From contig JACJNZ010000092.1 of the NCBI GenBank assembly GCA_014695325.1, positions 1 through 64,000 of the forward strand: a DNA stretch of 64,000 bases, given 5' to 3'. The notes below the pieces were generated by a model. It was not told the DNA's origin and did not search any database. It saw only the letters and a list, made by a program, of their open reading frames with translations. Positions 642 through 51,957 of this stretch are shown here, one piece after another. How positions within the stretch are numbered: position 1 is the first letter of the stretch; every line of letters begins with the position of its first letter. This stretch comes from Cyanobacteria bacterium FACHB-502 (GTDB taxonomy: Bacteria; Cyanobacteriota; Cyanobacteriia; Elainellales; Elainellaceae). The translations under genes were made by a program, and so were the position numbers.

Positions 642-1211
642 ATGCCTCAGGATGAACATAAAAAAGCAATAAGAGACATTGAAGCATTGAGCTATTATGC
701 AAAAAAGTTTCAACGTTTACGGGTCGATCGTGCTCATGGTGTAGCCCCTCATAAACCCATTTTGTTATTATCCGTCATTGAAAAAGTTAGAAGAGAAATT
801 ATTACAGAGGACAAAATTTATTTATCTTCTGAACTGATTCAAACATTTCTTAAATACTGGAGTTATCTAGGCTCGTTCAACCACAATCCTGATATCTCTA
901 GACCCTTCTTTCACATGAGAAGTGGCAAGTTTTGGCATCTATGGGCAAATCCAGGTTATATAAAACTAATCTCTTCTAAAGAGAAGTTGAAAACTTTTGC
1001 AGAAGTCAAGCAAGCAATTAAATATGCGTATTTAGATGAAGAACTATTTGAATTTCTACAAGACCCAATTCTAAGAAGTAGTTTAGTTACTGTGTTAGTT
1101 GCTCGATGGTTTCCGGGTAAGGTTGAGTTAGTCGAAGAGATTTCGCAAAGCGATGAATTTCGAGATCCGCCAGAGTACCTCAGAGATGGCTATTGGGAGC
1201 TTTATAACTAG
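642..1211 (+). CDS. Stand-alone sulfur-binding-domain (SBD) protein, no nuclease domain
   Basis: The 189-residue product aligns with the N-terminal half of the next gene's product. Both share SYYAKKF, RAHG-x2-PHKP (residues 30-39 here), LLLSVIE, FLKYWS, a PFFH...KFWHL stretch and KYAY-D-ELFE. In the downstream protein this half is the sulfur-binding domain of phosphorothioate-dependent restriction enzymes. Here the protein stops after that domain and has no HNH motif. The gene is 1 nt from dndPAP4 and 2 nt from the SBD-HNH gene, so translation is probably coupled. It may sense modified DNA, regulate or partner the nuclease; this is inference. A simple truncation is unlikely to be recent because the frame is clean and the two copies have diverged. 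Confidence 0.65.
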   Translation: MPQDEHKKAIRDIEALSYYAKKFQRLRVDRAHGVAPHKPILLLSVIEKVRREIITEDKIYLSSELIQTFLKYWSYLGSFNHNPDISRPFFHMRSGKFWHLWANPGYIKLISSKEKLKTFAEVKQAIKYAYLDEELFEFLQDPILRSSLVTVLVARWFPGKVELVEEISQSDEFRDPPEYLRDGYWELYN

Positions 1212-1213
1212 CG

Positions 1214-2167
1214 ATGAAGAAAGACCTAAGCTACTACGCTAAAAAGTTTACAAAGCTAGGAGTCGATCGCGCCCATGGAGCTGTACCACACAAACCAACT
1301 CTATTACTCTCTGTGATTGAACAATTTGACAAAGGTAGAATACAGCATAATCAAATCTATTTAACTCCTGAGCTAATTGCTACATTCCTCAAATACTGGT
1401 CAAATTTAGTAACCACTGATCATCGCTCAGATATTTCCTTACCTTTCTTTCATCTCACAGGCGATAAATTTTGGCATCTTATGCCTAATCCTGGTTTCGA
1501 GGCAACGATTGCAAGTAGAACTAAAATTAAAGGTTTATCAGCACTCCGAAATACAGTTAAATATGCGTATGTAGATGATGAATTATTTGAGTATTTACAG
1601 GATGTGAGTTCAAGGGTTCATTTGGCTGAAACTCTAGTTTCAACATGGTTTCCAGCAAAGACACAACAGCTAGAAAAACTTTATGAAGTTGATGAGCTAG
1701 ATAATATTCAGTTGAGATTATTGGAAAAAGGCGGTGCTGTTTACACAACAGAAGATATTAAAGACCAAGATAAGACATTTGTTAGAAATGCTGCATTCCG
1801 TCGTAACGTAGTCTCCTTGTATCTACAACATTGTGCCCTTTGCTGTTTGAAGATCGTTAGCCAAGATAGTCAGAACATTGTAGATGGAGCGCATATCAAA
1901 CCATTTTCAGAGTTTCACGACGATCGCTTTGATAATGGAATTGCTCTTTGTAAAAATCATCATTGGGCATTTGATCGTGGTTGGTTTGGTATTGGTGATG
2001 ATTACAAAATTATTATTCCACGCGAGCGCTTCCATGAAGAAAGCCCAACAGATATACGACCACTAAAAGATTTTGATGGAGAAGCTATTCTTCTGCCAAA
2101 CCAGAAGATTTACAATCCAAGAATTGATTCTCTTCAGTGGCATCGCGCATTCTGGAAAATTGCCTAA
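1214..2167 (+). CDS. Phosphorothioated-DNA-binding restriction endonuclease (SBD-HNH)
   Basis: This 317-residue protein has an N-terminal sulfur-binding domain (RAHG-x2-PHKP at residues 19-28, PFFH and KFWHL further on). A C-terminal HNH nuclease follows, with a CxxC at 207-210, the first His in GAHIKP at 227, then DNGIAL and KNHHWAFDRG. This layout is that of type IV restriction enzymes related to ScoMcrA, which cut DNA carrying phosphorothioate bonds. Such an enzyme would be expected to attack foreign modified DNA, or to work in a host lacking its own Dnd modification. It is third in its operon. Its stop overlaps the stop of the convergent XRE gene by 4 nt. Confidence 0.8.
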   Translation: MKKDLSYYAKKFTKLGVDRAHGAVPHKPTLLLSVIEQFDKGRIQHNQIYLTPELIATFLKYWSNLVTTDHRSDISLPFFHLTGDKFWHLMPNPGFEATIASRTKIKGLSALRNTVKYAYVDDELFEYLQDVSSRVHLAETLVSTWFPAKTQQLEKLYEVDELDNIQLRLLEKGGAVYTTEDIKDQDKTFVRNAAFRRNVVSLYLQHCALCCLKIVSQDSQNIVDGAHIKPFSEFHDDRFDNGIALCKNHHWAFDRGWFGIGDDYKIIIPRERFHEESPTDIRPLKDFDGEAILLPNQKIYNPRIDSLQWHRAFWKIA

Positions 2168-2412
2168 TCTGATTCTGTCCCTGTCTCTGAATCAGGATTC
2201 ATATAAAGCTGTCTAAATTCTGTGGCAGCATCAGGGTTTAAGTTCTCAAGTGCTTCCAAAATTTTCATGACCGTTTCAGATCCGGGATCTCGGATCTCAT
2301 TGGCCCATCGGTAAACATTAGATGCACCAATCCCCATCGCTGCGGCTAGTTTTCCCTGACTAATGCCGTAGCTCTGCATGACTGTTTTTAGAACTCTACC
2401 CGCTTTCCCCAT
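2164..2412 (-). CDS. XRE-family helix-turn-helix regulator
   Basis: An 82-residue Cro/CI-like DNA-binding protein. Residues 10-60 form a classical HTH (SQGKLAAAMGIGASNVYRWANEIRDP), and the acidic tail has no further domain. It is convergent with the SBD-HNH nuclease and divergent from the small gene at 2569. The palindromic sites at 2475-2522 lie in the 156-nt divergent space and are natural operators for it. Proteins of this kind often repress themselves and a neighbouring defence or toxin-antitoxin operon, but the target here is inferred. Confidence 0.8.
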   Translation of the reverse strand: MGKAGRVLKTVMQSYGISQGKLAAAMGIGASNVYRWANEIRDPGSETVMKILEALENLNPDAATEFRQLYMNPDSETGTESD

Positions 2413-2474
2413 ACTCTCTAAACACGGTTTACCTCAAGCATGATCAATCGTGTCAGAGCTTTGCATCTTCGTAT

Positions 2475-2522
2475 ACAGTCCAATTGGACTGTGGTAGCCT
2501 ATATAAAGACTAATTGGACTGT
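2475..2522. promoter_or_regulatory. Palindromic operator pair between XRE gene and 2569 gene
   Basis: ACAGTCCAATTGGACTGT at 2475-2492 is a perfect 18-bp palindrome. An imperfect second copy, GACTAATTGGACTGT, ends at 2522. The AATT centres are 30 bp apart, close to three helical turns, so dimers would bind on the same DNA face. An A/T-rich stretch (TATATAAA, 2500-2507) between them could be a -10 region. This arrangement is typical of XRE-regulator operators in a divergent promoter. Confidence 0.6.
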
Positions 2523-46705: not shown

Positions 46706-46790
46706 GAGCTTAAGCGGTTTTGAGCCGCCTCTGGAGTAAGCGACACGCAAATTAGACAAATTAGATTTGAGTTAAACAGATAGCGCAATA

Positions 46791-46820
46791 AGCAGGAGGT
46801 CGATCGCCTCTTGCTTTTTT
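46791..46820 (+). terminator. Terminator after hsp20
   Basis: AGCAGGAGGT, loop CGAT, CGCCTCTTGCT: a near-perfect 10-bp stem with one mismatch. Six T follow directly. A strong rho-independent terminator 86 nt after the Hsp20 stop. Confidence 0.8.
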
Positions 46821-47012: not shown

Positions 47013-47229
47013 CGTTCTTCAACCAACTTTATTGAAATCATTTACAGCGTTTATTTCTGCGTTCGACTTAGAAACGCAACGTTTGTAATCAAAAATTCGC
47101 AAAATCGATCGCCTACCTTCGGCTGAATAAGCAAACACAATGGTGAAAGCAATTCGATTGCTTTAGCAGTAGAGAGATTGACGGACGCAATGGGCGATGT
47201 TAGTATGGATGCACTTCAAATTAATCTCG

Positions 47230-47366
47230 AACAGTCAGCTTAATTCAGTCTCACCCTAACCAAAGAAGACTGAAGCGGAGGAACCAATATTGGGGCGTAT
47301 CGCAAGAAGGACACCTCTCAGTCCTAGCCCGTCAGCTAACTCCGTCGGCATTGAGGGGAGACTGAA
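47230..47366 (+). promoter_or_regulatory. ydaO/yuaA-type riboswitch (c-di-AMP sensor)
   Basis: The conserved blocks of this class appear in order. GCTTAATTC (about 47238) is followed by the helix CAGTCT/AGACTG. Then come GAAGCGGAGGAACCAA and TTGGGGCG (47271-47296), and CCCGTCAGCTAAC-TCCGTCGGC (47328-47349, hallmark block). GAGGGGAG precedes the closing strand. The closing helix P1 is CAGTC (47232-47236) with GACTG (47360-47364). These RNAs bind cyclic di-AMP and usually turn expression off. The next gene is the permease at 47489, about 120 nt downstream. The assignment rests on recalled consensus, not a covariance search. Confidence 0.82.
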
Positions 47367-47488
47367 GCTTTTGGCAATTTGTCTTTGGATAACCGTCTTT
47401 GGGCAACCGTGCTAAAGCTCGTCAGTATCCTTGACTGTTGGACAGTGGTTCCGTTGTTCTGTCCACCTTCAACCCTGAGGAGTTCAGG

Positions 47489-48343
47489 ATGGTTGTACAA
47501 TTTGTGGGTTCGATCGCCGTTGCCGGACAAGCAGCCTGGAGGCGTGTGCAGCCAGTCGTGCTGCAAGAAACTGTGCTGCTGCCTGCGTTGGGATTTGCAG
47601 GTCTGATTTTGCTGTGGTGGATAATTGCCCTGTTTAACAGCGACCTGATGCCCACCCCGCCAGAGGCACTTCAGGCAAACATGGACTATTTGCTGCATCC
47701 GTTTTATCGTCGTGGTCCTGGCGATTTGGGAATTGGTTGGCTGTTGATGGCAAGTTTGCGGCGCGTTTTGATTGGCTTTAGCCTAGGCGCACTGGTTGCA
47801 ATTCCCGCCGGATTTCTGATTGGGATGTCGCGTCAGGCAATGCTGGCACTCAATCCGATTATTCAAATCCTGAAGCCCGTTTCGCCTCTGGCCTGGCTGC
47901 CGATCGCCTTGGCAATTTTTAACCTGGCAGACCCTTCTGCGATTTTCGTCATCTTCATTACGTCGCTCTGGTCAACGATTATTAACACTGCACTTGGCGT
48001 ATCCAGCGTCTCCAAAGATTATCTGGATGTGGCGAGAGTCCTGGAAATGCCTCAGTGGAGACGAGTTATCAAAATTATTCTGCCTGCCAGTCTGCCCTAT
48101 ATCTTCACCGGGCTGCGCATTAGCCTGGGCATTGCATGGCTGGTGATCGTCGCAGTCGAGATGCTGACCGGAGGTGTAGGCATTGGCTTCTTTGTCTGGG
48201 ATGAGTGGAGCCGCTTGAACCTTAGCTCGGTCTTCCTGGCGGTGGTTGTAATTGGGCTAACCGGGCTGATTCTGGACTTTATCGTGGTCAAAATTCAGCA
48301 GTTTGTCACTCGTCGTCGTTTTCGATCGCAGTCGGCAGCCTAA
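47489..48343 (+). CDS. NrtB/CmpB-like ABC transporter permease
   Basis: About 284 residues from the ATG at 47489 (MVVQFVGSIAV, with GAGGAG upstream). It has six hydrophobic segments, and the coupling-loop EAA motif is present as VARVLEMPQWRRVIKIILPASLPYIFTGLRISLGIAW. The pattern IQILKPVSPLAWLPIALAIFN is that of nitrate/bicarbonate/cyanate/sulfonate importers. Together with the binding protein and ATPase downstream it forms a complete importer. The leader carries the ydaO-type riboswitch, so uptake is predicted to respond to c-di-AMP. Confidence 0.9.
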   Translation: MVVQFVGSIAVAGQAAWRRVQPVVLQETVLLPALGFAGLILLWWIIALFNSDLMPTPPEALQANMDYLLHPFYRRGPGDLGIGWLLMASLRRVLIGFSLGALVAIPAGFLIGMSRQAMLALNPIIQILKPVSPLAWLPIALAIFNLADPSAIFVIFITSLWSTIINTALGVSSVSKDYLDVARVLEMPQWRRVIKIILPASLPYIFTGLRISLGIAWLVIVAVEMLTGGVGIGFFVWDEWSRLNLSSVFLAVVVIGLTGLILDFIVVKIQQFVTRRRFRSQSAA

Positions 48344-48603: not shown

Positions 48604-50073
48604 ATGAACCACGATCGTCTCAATCGACGTGACTTCTTAAAAGGATTCGGAGCTTCGGTCGCTGCAACGACGCTGGCTTCCTGTGCGGTAAGTGCGAATA
48701 GGGCGCCGCAAGGACTGCCGCAAATGGCGGCTGAAGTAGAACCGATCATCGATCCCCAAACGCTGGAAAAACCGAATTTAACGATTGGCTATGTACCTGT
48801 CAATGACTGCGCTCCCTTTGCGATTGCCTGGGAAAAAGGCTTCTTTCGCAAATATGGCTTGAACGTGAAGCTTAGCCGCGAAGCAAGCTGGGCAACCTCA
48901 CGAGATGGCGTAATTTTTGGTCGGCTGGATGCGTCACCCGTGGTTTCAGGAGCCGTGACCAATGCCCGAATTGGCGCAGAAGGTGCGCGCCATGCCCCGA
49001 TGTGTGCCGCAATGACCATCCACCGCCATGGCAATGCAATGACCATGAATCGTGCCATGTGGGAATCGGGGATTCGCCCCTGGCATGAGTACAAGGGTGA
49101 TTTGGAGGCATTCGGGCGGGATTTCCGTCGCTATTTTGAAGGTCTGCCCTCGGATCAGCGAATTTGGGCAGTGGTTCTCAGTTCGGCGATTTATGAATAT
49201 TTCATTCGCTATGTCTCGGCTGCCGCAGGCGTTGATCCGTTGAGCGAATTTCGCGTGATTATTGTGCCGCCGCCCCAAATGGTAACGAATATGCGAATTG
49301 GTGCAATGCAGGCATACATGGTGGCAGAACCCTGGAACACTCGCGCAATTCGGGGGAATGAAGGAATTGGCTTCACCTTTGCTCAAGGAAAGGAAGTCTG
49401 GCGCGGACATCCTGATCGCCTGCTAGCAGTGATGGAGCCTTTTATTAATGAAAATCCCAAGACGTATCGATCGCTGGTGAAAGCCATGATCGAAGCCTGT
49501 CAGTATTGCAGCAAGCCGGAGAATCGCGCCGAAGTTGCAAAGATTATCACCGGGCGATCGTTCACCGGAGCCAGACCGAAAACCTGCAAAACCCCGCCCC
49601 TGATCACGCCGGACAATCTGCCTTCACTGCCCGAATGTGCAACCAAGTTTACGGGTCCAGGCATTATTGGCGAATATAACTATGGCGGTTTTGATAGCAA
49701 AGACCGGACGATCGCTGCCGCCGATACCACCATTTTTTACGACTTCCCAACCGACCTCGCCGAACCCGCCAACGCCCATTCCACCTTCTTGTGGCGATCG
49801 CAAAGTCTCTGGCTGATGACGCAAGCCGCCCGCTGGGGACAGATTCCCGAAATTCCGGCAAACGCAGACGAGCTGACGAAAAAAGCCTGGCGATCGGACC
49901 TCTACCGCGACATCGCTGCCGAAATGGGCATTAACTGCCCCAGCGAAGACTACAAAGTAGAACCCGCTACTGTCTTTATCGACCAGAAAGGATTCGATCC
50001 CAGCGACCCGGTCGGCTACTTGAAAAGCTTTGAAATTCGAGCCGATCGCCCCAAACCCTTCTATTTATCCTAG
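48604..50073 (+). CDS. NrtA/CmpA-family substrate-binding protein
   Basis: A 489-residue exported protein. NRRDFLKGFGASVAATTLASCA combines a twin-arginine signal with a lipobox (LASC), so it is exported folded and probably lipid-anchored. The binding domain has LTIGYVPVNDCAPFAIAWEKGFFRKYGL, LDASPVVSGA, RIGAMQAYMVAEPWN and the C-terminal NrtA-type tail. Relatives bind nitrate or bicarbonate, but the ligand residues could not be checked here, so the ion is open. 260 nt separate it from the permease; the ATPase follows after 45 nt. Confidence 0.88.
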   Translation: MNHDRLNRRDFLKGFGASVAATTLASCAVSANRAPQGLPQMAAEVEPIIDPQTLEKPNLTIGYVPVNDCAPFAIAWEKGFFRKYGLNVKLSREASWATSRDGVIFGRLDASPVVSGAVTNARIGAEGARHAPMCAAMTIHRHGNAMTMNRAMWESGIRPWHEYKGDLEAFGRDFRRYFEGLPSDQRIWAVVLSSAIYEYFIRYVSAAAGVDPLSEFRVIIVPPPQMVTNMRIGAMQAYMVAEPWNTRAIRGNEGIGFTFAQGKEVWRGHPDRLLAVMEPFINENPKTYRSLVKAMIEACQYCSKPENRAEVAKIITGRSFTGARPKTCKTPPLITPDNLPSLPECATKFTGPGIIGEYNYGGFDSKDRTIAAADTTIFYDFPTDLAEPANAHSTFLWRSQSLWLMTQAARWGQIPEIPANADELTKKAWRSDLYRDIAAEMGINCPSEDYKVEPATVFIDQKGFDPSDPVGYLKSFEIRADRPKPFYLS

Positions 50074-50118: not shown

Positions 50119-50958
50119 ATGATCAAACCGCTTACCTTCCCCGCCACCGATCGCCTGCGTGACCCAGCCGAGTTTCTTAGGATTGAGAATGTAACCAAAG
50201 CTTATCCTGCCGCCGGAGGTGGCCAGACCGTGATTCTGGATGGCATCAATCTGACGATCGGCGCAGATGAATACATCTCAGTCATCGGGCATTCGGGCTG
50301 CGGCAAATCGACCCTGCTGAAGATTGTGGCAGGTCTAGAACAGGCAACGTCTGGTTCTGTTTGGCTCGAAGGGCGCGAAGTGCGTAAACCCGGAGCGGAG
50401 CGCATGATGGTATTTCAGCAATACTCGCTGCTGCCCTGGCTCACGGTGCGAGAAAACGTTCGGCTGGCAGTGGATGAAGTGTTGAGGAACCTCTCTTCAG
50501 CAGAAAAGCGGGAAATTGTCAACGAACATCTGGCAATGGTGAATCTGACCCCTGCGGCAGAAAAATATCCTGATGAGCTTTCGGGCGGCATGAAACAGCG
50601 AGTGGGGATTGCTCGCGCTTTAGCGATTCGTCCCAAGGTGCTGCTGATGGATGAACCCTTTGGCGCGCTCGATGCGCTGACACGGGGCAAGCTCCAGCGG
50701 CAAGTCCTGGATATCTGGGAAAACCACCGTCAGGCGGTCATGATGATTACTCACGATGTGGATGAGGCGTTGTATATGTCCGATCGAATTATCTTAATGA
50801 CGAATGGACCTGCTGCCCAAATTGGCGAAATTTTGGAAGTTCCCTTTGCCCATCCGCGCCAGCCGAAGGAGCTGCGAGAACTGCCTGAATACTACGAACT
50901 GCGGAACCACGCGCTCAACTTCCTCGATCGTCATTTCGGACACGATGACCAACTTTAA
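50119..50958 (+). CDS. NrtD/CmpD-like ABC transporter ATPase
   Basis: A 279-residue ATPase with Walker A GHSGCGKSTLLK (about residue 59), Q-loop MVFQQYSLLPWLTVRENV, signature LSGGMKQRVGIARAL, Walker B VLLMDEPFGALDALTRGKLQ and switch His in MITHDVDEAL. It is the single-domain type, unlike NrtC, and has no regulatory extension. It energises the permease at 47489. The gene order permease, binding protein, ATPase differs from the nrtABCD and cmpABCD order. Confidence 0.92.
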   Translation: MIKPLTFPATDRLRDPAEFLRIENVTKAYPAAGGGQTVILDGINLTIGADEYISVIGHSGCGKSTLLKIVAGLEQATSGSVWLEGREVRKPGAERMMVFQQYSLLPWLTVRENVRLAVDEVLRNLSSAEKREIVNEHLAMVNLTPAAEKYPDELSGGMKQRVGIARALAIRPKVLLMDEPFGALDALTRGKLQRQVLDIWENHRQAVMMITHDVDEALYMSDRIILMTNGPAAQIGEILEVPFAHPRQPKELRELPEYYELRNHALNFLDRHFGHDDQL

Positions 50959-51186: not shown

Positions 51187-51957
51187 ATGAGAATTCAACC
51201 GATGCTGCTGCGCCTGCAAAGCGCGCTTGGACAAGACAACCTCAGTGAGCAAATGCTTTTGTATCCGGGTGTCGCGCCGACGCAGAATTCTTTTGCTGAG
51301 ATGTCAAGCAGTTCCGCCAAGGGAGCAATTGACGCTACTGAGGCAACTTCGGAATCGATCGACGAAACGACCAATATTGTCATCAGCTACAATGGTTCTC
51401 CGAATAGCCAAACTGCTCTCGATTTTGCCTTCTGGATTGCTCATCAAACGAAACTCGCGACCAACAAATCTGTTACCGTTCACGTCGTCTATGTGCTGGA
51501 TAGCTGCAACTCGCTCCAGTTAACTTGCGCTGCCGCTCCTGATCTGAACGGACTCCGATCGCAGTCTCTTCAAAAAGCGCAGGTTGGCGGTCTCCCCTCG
51601 ATTCAGAAGCAAACTGCAACGGCAGTTCAATCCAAACCCCAATCGCAGGCAGCAGCCGTCTATCAACCCAGAACGATTCAAACCCAGTCAGCCCGATCGC
51701 TAACCGATTCCCTTGAGACTGCCGATCGCATCCTGTGGCAGGCTCGCTGTCTAGCTGATGAATGGCGTGGTTCTCTAGAGGCACATTTGCGCTTTGGGGC
51801 AGTGGCGATCGAGCTGCGTCAGGTAGTGGAGGCTGTAAAGGCAGATGTGCTGATGGTAGGCTGTACGACCGGAGAACATTCCCTGATCCAGCAGTTGCTC
51901 ACCCCAGCGTTTCCCTGCCCGATCCTGGGCATTCCGCACGAGCTAGAAAAGCAGTAG
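51187..51957 (+). CDS. Universal stress protein (UspA fold) with long insertion
   Basis: A 256-residue protein. The UspA fold is split. NIVISYNGSPNSQTALDFAFWIAHQT near residue 62 gives strand 1 and helix 1. The second part (ADRILWQARCLADEWRGSLEAHLRFGAVAIELRQVVEAVKADVLMVGCTTGEHSLIQQLLTPAFPCPILGIP) completes it. Between them lies a Gln/Ser/Ala-rich, probably disordered stretch of about 60 residues. The N-terminal 55 residues are also low in structure. The GxxGxH-type nucleotide loop is only partly kept (GCTTGEHS). Its role in stress is inferred from the family. Confidence 0.8.
   Translation: MRIQPMLLRLQSALGQDNLSEQMLLYPGVAPTQNSFAEMSSSSAKGAIDATEATSESIDETTNIVISYNGSPNSQTALDFAFWIAHQTKLATNKSVTVHVVYVLDSCNSLQLTCAAAPDLNGLRSQSLQKAQVGGLPSIQKQTATAVQSKPQSQAAAVYQPRTIQTQSARSLTDSLETADRILWQARCLADEWRGSLEAHLRFGAVAIELRQVVEAVKADVLMVGCTTGEHSLIQQLLTPAFPCPILGIPHELEKQ

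Follow-up and report, generated by a model that had tools for sequence, protein, structure and literature searches.

In the 64,000-nucleotide stretch of DNA that we analysed (the window), a c-di-AMP riboswitch stands before the genes of an ABC importer of the nitrate/bicarbonate type, a combination found again in many cyanobacteria. We consider it likely that the riboswitch is a translational OFF switch on a three-gene importer of a distinct group, which probably takes up a small anion or some other charged solute.

The aptamer and the genes behind it

The whole window was searched with cmscan, and two Rfam matches at the curated cut-offs were found, one tRNA and RF00379, the c-di-AMP (ydaO/yuaA) class; ARAGORN found the tRNA alone. 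The aptamer lies at 47227–47365 on the forward strand and matches the model over its full length (positions 1–134 of 134); its score of 65.5 bits (E 6.1e-13) is well above the gathering score of 38. The original prediction, which had assigned the RNA to this class and proposed a covariance scan of 47200–47400, is thus borne out with a score above the threshold, and the conserved blocks and the closing helix CAGTC/GACTG that it had named are all present in the sequence. One block has the form GGGGCGTATC, which differs from the Rfam consensus GGGGUGAAUC. In 177 distinct aptamers searched with a pattern, which caught nothing in 80, GGGGCGTATC was the commonest form caught (29 of 177). By class, the RNA is a regular RF00379 member and a genuine c-di-AMP riboswitch, for which ligand binding is predicted, and a diadenylate cyclase domain is encoded in the same genome.

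Just upstream of the aptamer there is a candidate sigma-70-like promoter, TTGACG-17-TAGTAT (47178–47206, forward strand); one was found in the stretch scanned, where 1.3 are expected by chance. A sigma-70-like site at most 80 nt upstream of the aptamer was present in 24 of 71 related leaders, compared with 10.6% in simple base shuffles. We also noticed a terminator-like hairpin at 46790–46816, 3' of the Hsp20 gene and between that gene and the riboswitch operon; 0.9 such sites are expected by chance in the stretch.

From the aptamer end to the likely start codon of the permease gene, ATG 47489, the presumed leader measures 123 nt on the same strand, in agreement with the predicted position of the riboswitch before an importer gene. 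This ATG stands six bases after the SD sequence GAGGAG (47477–47482), and the whole element with the start codon 47489–47491 spans 47475–47491 (forward strand); it would be paired in the inferred OFF state once the switching segment described below is released. The permease (47489–48343, forward strand; 284 amino acids), with the frame end at 48343 as claimed, is of the NrtB type (TIGR01183, 235.5 bits against a cut-off of 209; PF00528). It is followed on the same strand by an SBP of 489 amino acids (48604–50073) with a TAT signal and an NMT1_2 domain, which belongs to the family of NrtA, CmpA and the CmpC C-terminal domain, and by an NrtD-type ATPase of 279 amino acids (50119–50958; TIGR01184, 364.7 bits against 291.8). 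With two models over their curated cut-offs, the proposed Nrt/Cmp type of the importer is supported. The gene order is permease–SBP–ATPase. An ATPase of the NrtC/CmpC type, with a C-terminal regulatory domain, is absent from the cassette; there is a single ATPase, and no SBP-like domain is found among its Pfam matches. The cassette is followed by a universal stress protein (Usp) gene (51187–51957, forward strand). Relatives often have a Usp gene at this place, frequently with a c-di-AMP riboswitch of its own; before the Usp gene of the window no RF00379 match was found up to an E-value of 10.

The window RNA shares the full-length match, the conserved blocks and the closing helix with its class. 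It differs in its target, an Nrt/Cmp-type ABC importer, and in its expression platform, in which a downstream helix is predicted to compete for the 3' arm of the closing helix (P1) while the same segment is complementary to the SD. No description of such a target or of such a platform for c-di-AMP riboswitches was found in the available portions of the literature examined, and none of the pairing of this riboswitch with an Nrt/Cmp-type importer, although an earlier listing in the target tables of Nelson 2013 or Block 2010 is possible; the accessible text of PMC5897029, PMC5623697 and PMC4755225 contains nothing that bears on the pairing. According to the available part of a review (PMC10117731), the class has been verified in cyanobacteria, and in Synechocystis the gene under its control is slr0753, putatively for chloride efflux. 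That system resembles ours as a cyanobacterial c-di-AMP riboswitch before a transporter gene, but the transporter is of a different class. Likewise, the kdpFABC operon of Bacillus thuringiensis has a c-di-AMP riboswitch before an ion importer, but in this case a K+ importer of a Firmicute (excerpt of PMC6488665). For the class as a whole, the accessible text of PMC3766115 speaks of many transporters, all possibly serving osmoregulation, and that of PMC5986932 and PMC4284465 states that Nelson 2013 linked the cyanobacterial targets to osmoprotectants. In the available part of PMC7266159, the targets given for ydaO are transporters of K+ and of amino acids as well as proteins of the cell wall or of osmotic shock; nitrate/sulfate/bicarbonate transporters are named there for ykkC RNAs.

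Conservation of the pairing and other riboswitch targets

A survey of relatives for the same RNA before nrt/cmp-like genes had been suggested together with the original prediction, and it revealed a strongly conserved pairing. The permease sample consisted of the best 80 of 563 relatives found (76 of the 80 with cyanobacterial titles, 70–83% identical), and 79 of these loci were scanned with RF00379, L039 being left out. A match over the cut-off lay on the same strand, 62–357 nt before the permease match, in 72 of the 79 loci. Among the seven exceptions, which count against our explanation, there was none near the permease in L093, L096, L105 and L111, and the distance was 677 nt in L110, 892 nt in L095 and 2871 nt in L109. 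The permease relatives in L109 and L111 come from assemblies labelled Verrucomicrobia (70%) and Cyclobacteriaceae (73%), respectively, by gene transfer or through mis-binned contigs.

Because this sample was chosen by the permease, we also surveyed 60 genomes, the window's own and 59 relatives. RF00379 reached the cut-off in 46 of them; in 14 control genomes it did so only in Bacillus subtilis and Corynebacterium glutamicum, with no match at the cut-off in the control genome of Synechococcus elongatus. Thirty of the 60 genomes, the window's own included, have an orthologous SBP, and in 28 of these a riboswitch was found at most 1.6 kb upstream of it (G034 and G042 were the misses). The pairing of riboswitch and operon is true and conserved.

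The 81 riboswitch loci over the cut-off had the ABC cassette as their largest target class (30 loci), followed by Usp (20), a CitMHS-family permease (10) and a distant SBP (1), with 20 other targets; classes were assigned from BLAST hits to five reference proteins at most 1.1 kb away, by which G011:C456 is counted as 'other' yet has a Usp by Pfam, and two loci below the cut-off (G004, G010) were left out. Among the 71 named loci that extend 4.3 kb or more beyond the cassette, a Usp gene followed it in 39, and in 22 of those 39 it had its own riboswitch. A CitMHS-family gene came after the cassette in 22 of the 65 loci with at least 6 kb downstream and upstream of it in 8 of 80. The second c-di-AMP riboswitch of the window's genome (L185, G000:C34:288646-288833) precedes a CitMHS/ArsB-family permease, and it is possibly the counterpart of that before slr0753.

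Some further targets were observed. There were five glycosyltransferases among the 20 'other' targets; a riboswitch before a gene of the family-4 type was seen in G009:C28, G016:C70, G020:C58, G024:C141 and G028:C499 (with a Pfam scan of one of the five), and the product is perhaps an osmolyte enzyme. In G014:C34:312573, G018:C112, G025:C69, G031:C871 and G034:C61 the riboswitch lay 274–441 nt before an ATP-grasp/CoA-ligase gene resembling succinyl-CoA synthetase (again, one of five by Pfam scan). Finally, in a genome of the same genus (L139, G001:C1) a riboswitch was located some 500 nt upstream of a distinct NrtA-like SBP (protein at 1153–2508, forward strand), which has 28% identity to the window SBP, keeps HPEK and, by eye, has Ile at the place of His196 of NrtA; a second Nrt-type system may thus be a riboswitch target.

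A predicted switch in the leader

When folded, the leader of the window adopted two mutually exclusive states, and the leaders of relatives have a similar layout. If the 3' arm of P1 is free, 47355–47432 (forward strand) are predicted to form one long hairpin, which we call anti-P1 and which takes up this arm in the inferred ON state, and the SD is placed in the loop of a small hairpin. If P1 is formed, 47403–47425 are predicted to pair with 47475–47496, covering the SD and the AUG. The switching segment AGCUCGUCAG (47416–47425, forward strand) would thus pair either inside the anti-P1 hairpin or with the SD. On this model, in the absence of c-di-AMP the 3' arm of P1 would pair with a segment about 50 nt downstream, the SD of the permease gene would be left more open and the importer would be made. 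With c-di-AMP bound, P1 would form and the freed downstream segment would pair with the SD and the start region, so that translation would stop. The OFF direction is assumed from the class and the fold; a point against our explanation is that even the ON state predicted for the window does not leave the SD in open sequence but in the loop of a small hairpin.

The two helices were examined for covariation. The set comprised 72 leaders, that of the window included; removal of ten because of inserts or doubtful starts and of three near-duplicates gave 59 aligned leaders (58 distinct). In the anti-P1 helix 89.1% of cells were paired and 60 cells were changed on both sides, values that none of 500 shuffles reached, and both-side changes occurred in 10 of the 15 pairs (19 of 500 shuffles reached ten), figures that are favoured by the dropping of ten leaders before the pair count and, where they rest on shuffles, inflated by the kinship of the sequences. 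Slid versions of this helix were at most 51.2% paired. For the anti-SD helix the covariation is weak, which again counts against our explanation: 77.8% of cells were paired, compared with 74.5% in shuffles (2 of 500 reached the observed value) and at most 60.8% in slid versions, and both-side changes were seen in 17 cells, where shuffles gave 10.0 (3 of 500), but these fell in only 4 pairs against 5.0 in shuffles (461 of 500), and the helix slid by one column gave more such cells (22 and 19) than the true register.

That the aptamer is a mere relic which does not control the operon is hardly credible in view of the full-length match far above the cut-off, the conserved position before orthologues in many cyanobacteria and the covariation of the platform.

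We also calculated how accessible the SD and the start codon would be. In the window the predicted accessibility was 0.36 with the 3' arm of P1 available and 0.18 without it. Over 69 distinct leaders the means were 0.46 and 0.34, and the difference with shuffled linkers was 0.025; no leader of this set was dropped for inserts, while L055 (very short spacing) and L108 (long) were outside the limits. The change was above the leader's own shuffle mean in 50 of the 69 leaders and exceeded 0.1 in 38; the remaining 19, with no change above that mean, are a further point against our explanation, and with related sequences a Wilcoxon value is not a fair probability. A duplex-energy test of the pairing with the P1 arm did not discriminate and was set aside: p was at most 0.05 for 6 of 30 ABC, 3 of 20 Usp, 0 of 10 CitMHS, 2 of 20 other and 0 of 1 distant-SBP leaders. 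For this reason the competing helix rests on covariation, and we propose it for the leaders of ABC cassettes and not for those of the other targets.

Termination of transcription is the mechanism described for c-di-AMP riboswitches of Gram-positive bacteria. Applied to this leader, the freed switching segment would let a CAGUGUC/GGUACUG hairpin form before a U-run. Such a hairpin with a U-run is present in the leaders of many relatives, and it was 84.2% paired across 59 leaders, while slid versions reached at most 55.2%. A terminator rule was satisfied in 11 of 70 leaders, about twice the shuffle rate of 7.6%, which also weighs against our explanation. However, the pairing was below the shuffled mean of 85.4, no pair was changed on both sides (2.2 in shuffles), and the U-run begins several bases past the stem, as judged by eye in aligned leaders and as seen in two folded ones. 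No intrinsic terminator-like site was found in the window's own leader, and the support in relatives is weak. We therefore rank translational OFF control first, as part of an explanation that we hold to be probable, and termination second, as possible but doubtful.

The binding-protein pocket and the substrate

It had been proposed that the riboswitch ties nitrogen or inorganic-carbon supply to c-di-AMP. This part of the original prediction is not supported, since the genome contains an nrt cluster and a cmp cluster apart from this cassette and the pocket of the SBP differs at the positions that contact nitrate and bicarbonate. When the SBP was used as the query against its own genome, two further clusters came up, one on contig C49 and one on C77. 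Both encode an SBP of the NrtA/CmpA type together with an ATPase ending in an SBP-like domain; the ATPases were named NrtC and CmpC after the neighbouring genes. Against solved structures, the C49 SBP scores 620 bits with NrtA and the C77 SBP 696 bits with CmpA, and the frame before the C49 SBP putatively resembles nitrite reductase (nirA), as recognised by eye. The window SBP is 34–38% identical to its relatives in these clusters over the main stretch. Among solved structures it is closest to chains that contain the C-terminal regulatory domains of CmpC and NrtC (217–228 bits, with 226–228 bits for the CmpC and regulatory-domain chains), followed by CmpA (174 bits) and NrtA (159 bits).

Lys269 and His196 are the nitrate contacts of NrtA, as stated in the available part of PMC8786288. 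In the alignment they correspond to Arg272 and Tyr197 of the window SBP. Two further columns, which presumably also belong to the NrtA pocket, match Trp102 to Trp96 and Gln155 to Asn144. W96, N144, Y197 and R272 were invariant in 99 of 99 distinct SBP orthologues (lowest identity listed, 58.9%), which are not independent because some genomes occur both among the relatives and among the named loci (for example, G014 and G080 share hits). They were obtained from 110 matched frames, of which 104 were kept as orthologues and two, at 28% identity in the same loci, as non-orthologues; four partial frames were left out. Asn at the Gln155 place is common to the genome's CmpA and both ATPase domains, while Tyr at the His196 place and Arg at the Lys269 place occur in none of the genome's four comparison sequences. 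The genome's own CmpA has Gln at the His196 column and Glu at the Lys269 column. For CmpA, the accessible text of PMC13249358 lists Glu271, Gln155 and Gln198 as pocket residues, the acidic Glu271 binding Ca2+ and bicarbonate, and the Glu of the genome's CmpA probably corresponds to this Glu271. With Arg272 and Tyr197 in all 99 orthologues, neither the Lys/His pair of NrtA nor the acidic residue of CmpA is present, and, judged by the alignment, the window SBP fits neither known pocket.

The cassette nevertheless shares much with the known systems. Its permease and ATPase pass the curated NrtB and NrtC/D models and its SBP is of the same family as NrtA; it differs from NrtABCD by the lack of the NrtC regulatory domain, the order permease–SBP–ATPase, the Tyr/Arg pair in the pocket and the presence of an NrtA-bearing cluster elsewhere in the genome. 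To CmpABCD (BCT1) it is related through the SBP, but it has Arg where the genome's CmpA has Glu, no CmpC with a regulatory domain, and a CmpA-bearing cluster elsewhere in the genome. An accessory nitrate/nitrite or bicarbonate transporter, through which c-di-AMP would act on nitrogen or carbon uptake, is compatible with these family matches, with the basic residue kept at the Lys269 place, with Asn144, shared with the genome's CmpA, and with the rise of several bicarbonate transporter genes in a Synechocystis dacA mutant (available text of the review PMC10117731). We regard it as rather unlikely, given the separate clusters and the 34–38% identity to their SBPs, the invariant Tyr and Arg, and the missing regulatory-domain ATPase; as a default identity, a nitrate or bicarbonate pump was set aside. 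The pattern GTAN8TAC, which we take to be an NtcA-type site, occurred in only 8 of 71 upstream stretches and was not found near the candidate promoter of the window, but this is weak evidence because the pattern is also absent from the 500 nt before the genome's own nrtA, the operon promoter of which probably lies further upstream.

A cyanate transporter of the CynABD type would have the same parts, namely an SBP, a permease and one ATPase without a regulatory domain. CynABD is linked to the cyanase gene. A cyanase domain was somewhat commoner in SBP-bearing genomes (25 of 30) than in the others (18 of 30), but the cyanase gene of the window's genome is on contig C49 and not beside the cassette, and no cyanase hit was obtained in the SBP-bearing genomes G003, G013, G014, G029 (only 69% complete) and G042. 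Such a pump, with no physical link to cyanase, is improbable and was rejected.

What we favour is that the cassette is a three-gene ABC importer of the nitrate/bicarbonate family that forms a separate orthologous group with its own substrate; together with control by the riboswitch and the translational OFF mechanism, we think this probable. That the importer serves ion or osmotic balance is suggested mainly by the clustering of the cassette with Usp and CitMHS-family genes; these and a glycosyltransferase, which are other targets of the riboswitch, look osmotic or ionic. Since the pocket holds a basic residue, the substrate may plausibly be an anion. The importer would be made at low c-di-AMP as part of an ion and osmotic balance with the Usp and CitMHS-family genes that share its riboswitch and often its locus. 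We put forward only tentatively the more specific view that it takes up a small anion, such as chloride or another counter-ion of K+, and that with Usp and the CitMHS-family permease it might form a c-di-AMP-controlled module for charge and turgor, worked by a translational switch, in a previously undescribed family with its own pocket.

In cyanobacteria c-di-AMP is connected with night survival and salt acclimation, according to the available part of the review (PMC10117731). Few of its outputs in these bacteria are known. If our explanation is true, the riboswitch target met most often in the sample is an importer with a permease and an ATPase that both score above the cut-offs of curated 'nitrate transporter' models. 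This would provide a directly testable output of c-di-AMP, and it would warn against taking such genes for nitrogen or carbon uptake systems. The recurrent pairing suggests that one main target of c-di-AMP in cyanobacteria is an ion or solute importer not yet characterised.
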